Shown: piece by piece, positions 48,076 to 49,506 of the stretch | How the letters are laid out: each line of letters opens with the position of its first letter | Numbering within the stretch: position 1 is the first letter of the stretch | From: Thioalkalivibrio sp. ALE31 | GTDB lineage: Bacteria > Pseudomonadota > Gammaproteobacteria > Ectothiorhodospirales > Ectothiorhodospiraceae | Assembly: GCF_000377405.1 (NCBI RefSeq) | Contig: NZ_KB905020.1 | Location: 620,001-684,000 of the forward strand | Length of the DNA stretch: 64,000 bases | Reading direction: 5' to 3' | Program-made: the position numbers and the translations under genes | Notes under the pieces: model-generated | Told to the model about the DNA's origin: nothing | The model's database searches: none | What the model saw: only the letters and a program-made list of their open reading frames with translations

Positions 48076-48143
48076 CCTGTAGGAGGCCAGCCCCCTGGCC
48101 GATTCGGTGTTCATCAGCGCCCCATCGGCCAGGGGGCTGGCCT
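48076..48143. repeat. REP-like palindrome, type 2, split by the IS110 insertion
   Basis: Left arm 48076-48102 (core GGAGGCCAGCCCCCTGGCC) and right arm from 48125, which is cut after GGGGGCTGGCCT. The missing end, CCTACAGG, is found at 49303-49310 beyond the insertion sequence. Joining the two restores a perfect 27-base arm. Confidence 0.9.
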
Positions 48144-48173
48144 TGTATGTTTACCCGTGGCAGGCCTAGAAAG

Positions 48174-48330
48174 GGTCTGTCGGGGTGGAGGGACGAGGCT
48201 GGCATCTGGCCTGTGGCACAGACGGTAGGAGAGTTCGTCCCACCCCTCACCTTAAACGCCGATAAGGAATCGATCGGCTCGGGACCGACGATAGATGGCA
48301 AGCCAGCGTTCGGTGAGGCCCCGACAGACC
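48174..48330 (+). ncRNA. Bridge RNA candidate of the IS110 element
   Basis: Outer closing stem GGTCTGTCGGGG (48174-48185) pairs perfectly with CCCCGACAGACC (48319-48330). Inside, a first stem GGGACGA (48190-48196) / TCGTCCC (48235-48241) encloses a loop with GGCTGGC (48197-48203) on its 5' side and GTAGGAG (48225-48231) on its 3' side. These match the left and right halves of the insertion site GGCTGGC-CT-CCTAC, as target guides should. A second stem AACGC (48255-48259) / GCGTT (48306-48310) encloses a donor-loop candidate with GGAATCG (48266-48272) and GGCAAG (48297-48302), which can pair with the element's own joined ends when G-T pairs are allowed. Its place upstream of the transposase is that of IS621-type bridge RNAs. 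Confidence 0.8.
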
Positions 48331-48358
48331 ACTCCAAGCTAGCTCGGGAGGTGTGATG

Positions 48359-49297
48359 ATGGCAACGCATCGGATCGGGGTCGATGTCGGCAAGGCCGAG
48401 TTGTGGATCAGTATTGACGGTGAAACCGCACAGCCGTGTCCCAACGAGCTCCCGGCGATCCGTCGCTGGGTCCGTAGCCTGGAGGGTCCGGCCGACTTCG
48501 CCCTGGAAGCCACCAACGACTATCACCTGGCCCTGGCGCTGGAGGCTCATCATCAGGGCCACCGGGTGTATCTGGTCAATGGCTATCGCCTCAATCGCTA
48601 CCGCGAGAGCATCGGTGGCCGGGCCAAGACCGATGCCGGGGATGCCCGGCTGCTGGTGCGTTATCTGCAACGCGAGCAGGACGAACTGCGCCCCTGGACA
48701 CCGCCGCCCGAGGGTTACCGGACCCTGCAAAAGCTGTTGCGCCGGCGTGCCACGCTGGTGCGGGCACGGGTCATGCTGGAGCAGAGCCTGCGAGGCGTAC
48801 CCGAACTGCAGTCCAACCTGAAGGATCTGCTCCGGGAGATCGGCCGGCTGGATGCCGTCCTCCAGCGTGTGCTGCGCGAGACGGTCGGTCGCGCCGGCTG
48901 GTCGGATCACGCCCGGCGCTGCCAGCAGATCGAGGGCGTCGGTCCGCTCACCGCGGCAGGCCTGACCATGGCGTTCCAGCGGGGGGCCTTCCGCAACAGT
49001 GATGCGTTCGTCGCCTTCCTGGGGCTGGATGTCCGCATCCGCGACTCCGGCACAAAACGGGGGCAGCGCAAACTCACCAAACAGGGCGATCCAGAGTTGC
49101 GACGGCTGCTCTACCTGGCCGCGATGCAGGCCAAGTCCACACCCGCCTGGAGCGACTACTACCAGCGCTGCCTGGACCGTGGCCTGGCGACGACCCAGGC
49201 GCTGAATACCTTGGCTCGCAAGCTGGCCCGCGTCGCCTTCGCCCTGATGAACAATCAGACCGATTACCAACCTAAGACCCCTTGTGGAGAGACATAG
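48359..49297 (+). CDS. IS110-family transposase (bridge-RNA-guided recombinase)
   Basis: 312 residues; ATG 48359 has GGAGG seven bases upstream (an ATG one codon earlier is also possible). The N-terminal RuvC-like DEDD domain shows GVDVGKAELW, FALEATNDYH and KTDAGDARLL; the C-terminal domain has QIEGVGPLTAAGL and DSGTKRGQRKLTKQGDPELRRLLY, holding the catalytic serine. Intact, no frameshift, so the element may be active. Confidence 0.95.
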   Translation: MATHRIGVDVGKAELWISIDGETAQPCPNELPAIRRWVRSLEGPADFALEATNDYHLALALEAHHQGHRVYLVNGYRLNRYRESIGGRAKTDAGDARLLVRYLQREQDELRPWTPPPEGYRTLQKLLRRRATLVRARVMLEQSLRGVPELQSNLKDLLREIGRLDAVLQRVLRETVGRAGWSDHARRCQQIEGVGPLTAAGLTMAFQRGAFRNSDAFVAFLGLDVRIRDSGTKRGQRKLTKQGDPELRRLLYLAAMQAKSTPAWSDYYQRCLDRGLATTQALNTLARKLARVAFALMNNQTDYQPKTPCGET

Positions 49298-49325
49298 AAT
49301 CTCCTACAGGGGGGACACCACCACA

Positions 49326-49408
49326 CCCGTGGGAGCCTGCTTGCAGGCGAAGCCCCTGCCCGCGCCCGACTCTGGCAGGGGCTTCGCCTGCAAGCAGGCT
49401 CCCACGGG
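49326..49408. repeat. REP-like palindromic unit, type 1, perfect arms
   Basis: Arms of about 34 bases (49327-49360 and 49374-49407) are fully complementary around a 13-base spacer. Core GGAGCCTGCTTGCAGGCGAA is shared with 34487-34565. A small separate hairpin, AGCCAATCC (49425-49433) / GGATTGGCT (49443-49451), follows before the nuclease gene. Confidence 0.85.
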
Positions 49409-49506
49409 GCAGAACCGATGAAGGAGCCAATCCTGCGATCCGGGATTGGCTTTGCCCCGCGATTCTTCCAAACTGCCGCCATGATCCCGACTGCCTCCCT
49501 GCGCCC

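Follow-up and report, generated by a model that had tools for sequence, protein, structure and literature searches.

An IS110-group insertion sequence in a REP-like palindrome

We have analysed an insertion sequence of the IS110 group lying in the window, by which we mean the whole 64-kb stretch of DNA under study. Both ends of the element are intact. The left junction, GGCTGGC-CT-TGTATG, has its core CT at 48142-48143; at the right junction, GAAT-CT-CCTAC, the core CT is at 49301-49302. The coordinates of the features are collected in Table 1.

Table 1. The insertion sequence, its leader and guides, and the palindrome into which it is inserted
Feature	Position	Strand	Basis
First arm of REP-like palindrome, intact, CCTGTAGGAGGCCAGCCCCCTGGCCGAT	48076..48103	+	reverse complement is the reconstructed insertion site
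Second palindrome arm, up to and including CT core 48142-48143	48124..48143	+	resumes past the element at 49303
Left target GGCTGGC	48135..48141	+	
IS110-group insertion sequence, 1,159 bp with one copy of the CT core	48142..49300	+	junctions; homologues with the same ends
Bridge-RNA-like noncoding leader	48174..48330	+	closing stem 48174-48185 with 48319-48330
Left target guide GGCTGGC	48197..48203	+	covariation with flanks
Hairpin separating the two target guides	48206..48221	+	consensus structure
Right target guide GTAGGAG; AG pairs with core CT	48225..48231	+	flank comparison
Left donor guide AAGGAATC	48264..48271	+	GAATC is the right end GAAT followed by the core C
Probable right donor guide GATAGATGGCAAG	48290..48302	+	by eye
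IS110 transposase, 314 aa	48353..49297	+	Pfam PF01548, PF02371; NCBIfam NF033542; ISCro4 alignment
Possible -35 TTGTGG	49282..49287	+	sequence reading alone; weak
Second CT core copy, right target and palindrome end, CCTACAGG	49301..49310	+	

The transposase is taken to start at the GTG at 48353, although an ATG at 48356 or 48359 could also serve. It contains the PF01548 and PF02371 domains (E = 1.5e-20 and 2.2e-19, each passing the curated cut-off), and matches NF033542 ('IS110 family RNA-guided transposase') with 195.5 bits against a cut-off of 140. Two solved relatives were found, the transposases of ISCro4 and IS621. On alignment with the former, residues D11, E52, D94, D97 and S232 fall opposite its D, E, D, D and S; a DEDD set and a serine are the catalytic residues according to the passages on catalysis in PMC11208160 and PMC11208158. 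The noncoding left end is long, with 211 bp ahead of the start codon, and the right end extends just 3 bp past the stop codon. These domains, the DEDD and serine residues, and the long left and short right ends place the element in the IS110 group. We also considered the IS1111 group and rejected it, since this requires a guide-RNA region downstream of the gene, whereas here the leader lies upstream and 3 bp separate the stop codon from the core.

The reverse complement of CCTGTAGGAGGCCAGCCCCCTGGCCGAT is ATCGGCCAGGGGGCTGGC-CT-CCTACAGG, i.e., 48124-48143 joined to 49303-49310. The two arms thus form an inverted repeat of 28 bp, and the element has inserted into the second of them. We inspected the orthologous place in seven relatives. 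In Thioalkalivibrio sp. AKL19 (locus L168) the palindrome is uninterrupted between the same two genes, with GGCTGGCCTCCTACAGGGG. Three genomes (G021, G022 and G024) have a GTGGGAG-type repeat instead of the first REP, there is no REP at this place in G008 and G002, and in G026 the upstream context differs. Shortly after the downstream end of the element, at 49331-49414, there is a second REP-like palindrome, this one of the GTGGGAG...CTCCCAC type; L157 and L169, which are without the first REP, have it at the orthologous position too.

Sequences of the GGCTGGCCTCCTAC type are REP-like repeats. This 14-mer has 36 exact occurrences in the host genome, and is several-fold less common in G010, G021, G022 and G026 (6, 8, 6 and 8 exact occurrences, respectively); the reversed control pattern gave 0 in all five genomes.

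The leader as a structured RNA

The leader upstream of the transposase had been read from its letters as a bridge RNA closed by a perfect 12-bp stem and containing two internal loops. The stem is indeed perfect, GGTCTGTCGGGG (48174-48185) pairing with CCCCGACAGACC (48319-48330). Of the two loops, the target loop is well supported in a consensus of 11 homologous leaders, while the donor loop is resolved only in part. Folding of 48174-48329 gave z = -3.06, and 0 of 200 shuffled sequences folded as well. Conserved structure across homologues, on which the sequence-only reading had staked its case, is found: at 6 of the 36 consensus pairs one or more sequences have both bases changed, with a small covariation term of -1 out of -38.8 kcal/mol. 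A scan of the whole 64-kb window against Rfam at gathering scores gave 0 matches.

Within the leader, GGCTGGC at 48197-48203 is identical to the left flank at 48135-48141, and GTAGGAG at 48225-48231 is complementary to CTCCTAC at 49301-49307, both as had been claimed. The further claim that these two matches are unlikely to arise by chance was borne out by dinucleotide shuffling of the leader. GGCTGGC appeared in 216 and GTAGGAG in 402 of 20,000 shuffles, and both together, in the right order and near each other, in 1 of 20,000.

We also examined the joined ends for a promoter. On formation of a circle TTGTGG would be 17 bp from TATGTT (48146-48151). Inspection by eye of the right ends of the Alcanivorax elements revealed no -35 resembling TTGTGG, and we therefore do not rely on this promoter.

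Relatives and their distribution

The nearest named transposase records are those of Thioalkalivibrio sp. ALE14 (97% identical) and AKL19 (96%). Copies of the element are carried by these two genomes (G021 and G010), both of the genus of the window; those of AKL19 are broken at contig ends in the assembly used. The host genome has one copy, with no further match found. In the plasmid collection, the best places of all 2,248 records matching the transposase were below 60% identity.

A covariance model built from the 11 leaders was run on 369 genomes sampled from the class and matched 10 of them, including the window genome and G082 (whose copy is identical to L044), both already in the model. 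In the genus of Alcanivorax sp. DG881, 6 of 17 genomes gave matches; five were already in the model and the sixth is G440. This genome has 13 leaders (L129, L132, L134 and L136-L145) of two guide types, found in 2 and 11 copies, and is well suited as a natural test of whether guides agree with their targets. Several contigs of G145 and G110 carry short pieces that encode no more than about 30 C-terminal residues of a related transposase; where these lie at contig ends, assembly has probably broken the copy.

The right target guide and the donor guides

The right guide matched at 7/7 positions in 27 of the 31 insertions with a right flank, the remaining four having GTGGGAG facing CTCCTAC with a pair of the G-T type. 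In a wider table the match was 7/7 in 29 of 32 rows, the others being two G-T cases and L005; this figure is descriptive, as the motifs were chosen after viewing the loci of distant genomes. Five right-guide sequences were observed, GTAGGAG, GTGGGAG, CGACGAG, CGATGAG and AGCCGAG. The two copies in G086 have CGACGAG and CGATGAG, each facing CTCATCG (6/7 and 7/7, respectively), and the AGCCGAG of G338 faces CTCGGCT (7/7). Thus the right guide has been rewritten in these two distant genomes, with an exactly matching flank in two of the three copies.

In all 29 scored rows of 36 (7 being unscored), the left donor guide agrees with the right end of its own element. The right end is GAAT in 27 and GGAT in two (L041 and L122). 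The concordance therefore depends on a single varying base, at which two rows depart from the usual state, and the search pattern presupposed A or G at that base. The right donor guide is probable, and was identified by eye from discontiguous complementarity of CAAG to CTTG and ATA to TAT. Its partner TTGTATG is invariant in the rows, and was the anchor of the search.

Covariation of the left target guide with the flanking DNA

We next compared the left guide with the flanks. Taking one row for each of the 16 distinct left guides among 33 distinct insertions, with seven positions in the standard register, 78 of 112 positions match the element's own flank. Shuffling the pairing gave a mean of 49.6, and 0 of 20,000 shuffles reached 78. 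Shuffling ignores relatedness, however, so that narrower comparisons matter. Within one guide group (17 rows, scored in the better of two registers) there were 93 matches compared with 74.5 on shuffling (0 of 20,000). A second guide group of four rows exhibited no excess over shuffling (25 compared with 23.5; 6,660 of 20,000).

The narrowest comparison is that of the window with its ALE14 sister. Their leaders differ only at 48200, 48201 and 48344, of which the first two lie inside the left guide, changing GGCTGGC to GGCCCGC, and the elements adjoin different REP-like sites, GGCTGGC-CT and AAGCCCG-CT. In the standard register the ALE14 flank matches the ALE14 guide at 6/7 positions and the window guide at 4/7; in a register slipped by one base the window flank matches the window guide at 7/7 and the ALE14 guide at 5/7. 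The change of guide clearly accompanies the change of flank, in keeping with the bridge-RNA interpretation that the sequence-only reading had proposed, and the pair offers a clear example of RNA-guided retargeting in nature.

Multiple copies within one genome can be compared similarly. In G440 each copy's own guide beats the other guide type in 13 of 13 left flanks, the weakest two by 3 to 2 in the standard register. Copies with the same loop thus lie in matching flanks, as the proposed check on homologous copies had anticipated. Between the two G086 copies a C/T difference in the left guide is mirrored in the flank (TTCCCTGG and TTCCTTGG), and both guides match at 7/7.

Across the 36 rows, the left guide matches at 5/7 or better in 26 in the standard register, rising to 32 when the better of two registers is taken for each row. 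The four that fall below this in either register are L004 (3/7) and L038, L043 and L122 (4/7). The table merges insertions that share the last 20 bases of left flank and the guide (e.g., L111 and L112 with L108), and misses L120, which was described by eye. Cross-pairing guides and flanks from 32 of the rows generated 954 mismatched pairs, of which 104 reached 5/7 and 24 reached 6/7 in the standard register. Because relatives share bases, mismatched pairs can also reach 5/7, and a single match at this level proves little. With its 16 left guides and five right-guide sequences, the subfamily is a natural collection of bridge RNAs directed at REPs.

A one-base displacement of the left guide

The arms and orientations of the two guide matches had been taken as those required by the IS621 mechanism, with the core included in the right guide. 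The right guide does match both bases of the core; the left match, measured against the guide position in most homologues, lies one base off. In the register of most relatives the window guide matches its flank at 2/7 positions, compared with 7/7 when displaced. The guide base facing the C of the core is then A, so that the left side matches the T only.

A small number of other insertions behave similarly. One AKL19 copy reaches its match of 6/7 only when slipped, while the other AKL19 left junction (5/7) and ALE14 (6/7), whose loops are almost identical, are in the standard register; the AKL19 guide has one mismatch to the target of the C14 copy and two to that of the C17 copy. L139 and L141, both in G440, match at 5/7 displaced and 3/7 in register, and L119 at 5/7 and 0/7. 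Of the G440 copies with one guide, nine are in register (6/7 or 7/7) and two fit better slipped (5/7 compared with 3/7). In the displaced register, only 3 of the 954 mismatched pairs match at 6/7 or better, and two of these are pairs of the window and AKL19, which have a common target.

Comparison of these few insertions suggests true slippage of the left guide. We propose tentatively, and at rather less than even odds, that the position of the left guide with respect to the core can shift by one base, in which case a single loop might serve two types of REP whose stems are offset by one base. It is also possible that the displaced matches mark insertions made under an earlier guide. Slippage, if true, would make the geometry looser than the published IS621 pairing, and would bear on the specificity of engineered bridge RNAs.

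Interpretation and alternatives

Observation of the locus and its relatives provides the anatomy of the element, covariation of guides with targets and of the left donor guide with the element's end, a conserved leader, and an uninterrupted REP at the orthologous locus. We consider it highly probable (approximately 0.93), on comparison of sequences, that this is an autonomous IS110-group element whose leader acts as a bridge RNA with guides that target the REP of its host. Upon excision, the right and left ends would meet at the CT core of a circle, from which the leader RNA would be transcribed, to be bound by the transposase. In the target loop the left guide would read the variable stem of the REP palindrome and the right guide its conserved end CTCCTAC, while the second loop would hold the element's own joined ends. 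Exchange at the CT core would insert the element into one arm of the REP, in an orientation set by the guides. Transcription from the circle, the RNA-protein complex and strand exchange are carried over from the published work on IS621, and would apply here by analogy.

Could the transposase recognize the REP unaided, with the 7-mers of the leader incidental, perhaps as a captured piece of REP? The repeat is abundant in the host (the 36 exact copies of GGCTGGCCTCCTAC), and GGCTGGC did arise in 216 of the 20,000 shuffled leaders. Yet transposases that are 96-97% identical adjoin different left targets, with the guides of ALE14 and the window differing accordingly, and in two distant genomes rewritten right guides face rewritten right flanks. 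Moreover, the ALE14 copy lies in AAGCCCG-CT-CCTAC despite 8 exact occurrences of GGCTGGCCTCCTAC in that genome, where GCCCGCTCCTAC has 2 exact occurrences compared with 5 for the reversed control; the choice of site is not obviously explained by abundance. We find recognition by protein alone very improbable. We give equally little credence to a leader that is solely regulatory, as a structured mRNA leader or the target of an antisense sRNA controlling transposase translation. There is a precedent in the REP-inserted ISPpu9, for which PMC8450116 describes a structured 5′-UTR and two sRNAs that affect tnp expression, but a purely regulatory role would not lead one to expect loop bases that track both the flanking DNA and the right end of the element. 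The regulatory and guide roles are not exclusive.

An explanation of a different kind is that the mechanism is as proposed but that this copy is no longer mobile, its guide match being the relic of one old insertion. This is compatible with a REP-targeting bridge RNA, and the single copy in the host genome is consistent with it. However, the reading frame is intact with its catalytic residues present, the ends and leader are nearly identical to those of the ALE14 and AKL19 elements at other loci, and AKL19 has two different left junctions. We therefore regard an immobile copy as unlikely.

Relation to known elements

In its noncoding leader within a long left end, with two loops carrying target and donor guides, its CT core taking part in pairing, its transposase with RuvC DEDD and Tnp serine residues, and its REP target, the element resembles IS621 of E. 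coli as described in the relevant sections of PMC11208160 and PMC11208158. It differs from IS621 in that the transposase is only distantly similar (E = 7.3e-19), the left guide in many relatives faces the core with CA, matching the C only, and in the window the left guide matches one base out of place. Seven bases including the core are matched by the right guide here, where the IS621 analysis, in the sections that treat it, used four; these sections also note right guides longer than four bases in some IS621 orthologues.

Insertion into REPs is known for the IS110-family elements IS621, ISPpu9, ISPpu10 and ISPa11, from the relevant parts of PMC1525189 and PMC11208160. Our element is likened to ISPpu10 and ISPpu9 of Pseudomonas putida, IS110-family elements within REPs, by their published descriptions and not by sequence. 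Each was inserted in a REP in 7 of 7 copies in the account given in PMC1525189, and a section of PMC11208160 gives predicted base-pairing for an ISPpu10 bridge RNA. As described in parts of PMC11187229, the IS110-type seekRNA of ISEc21 is likewise an upstream noncoding RNA in which the bottom-strand match lies 5′ of the top-strand match, although ISEc21 is a different element with a shorter, more abundant RNA form of 74 nt. The same source contains natural reprogramming in ISEc11 and ISXne4. Published work thus already covers bridge RNAs, the targeting of REPs, natural retargeting and wide covariation of guides with targets. The element was absent from the titles and abstract openings among the papers listed by literature searches, of incomplete coverage, on Thioalkalivibrio IS110, on bridge RNA with IS110 or REP, and on bridge RNA since 2025. 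Thioalkalivibrio, Alcanivorax, register and offset are words that occur nowhere in the main text of PMC11208160, and register likewise has 0 occurrences in PMC11208158.

Finally, the host genome has two matches to the Y1 transposase family PF01797 (G000:C1:522181-522513 and G000:C1:536825-537034), and G010 and G021 have five each. From their family assignment these may be REP-associated transposases, which could possibly mobilize the REPs.
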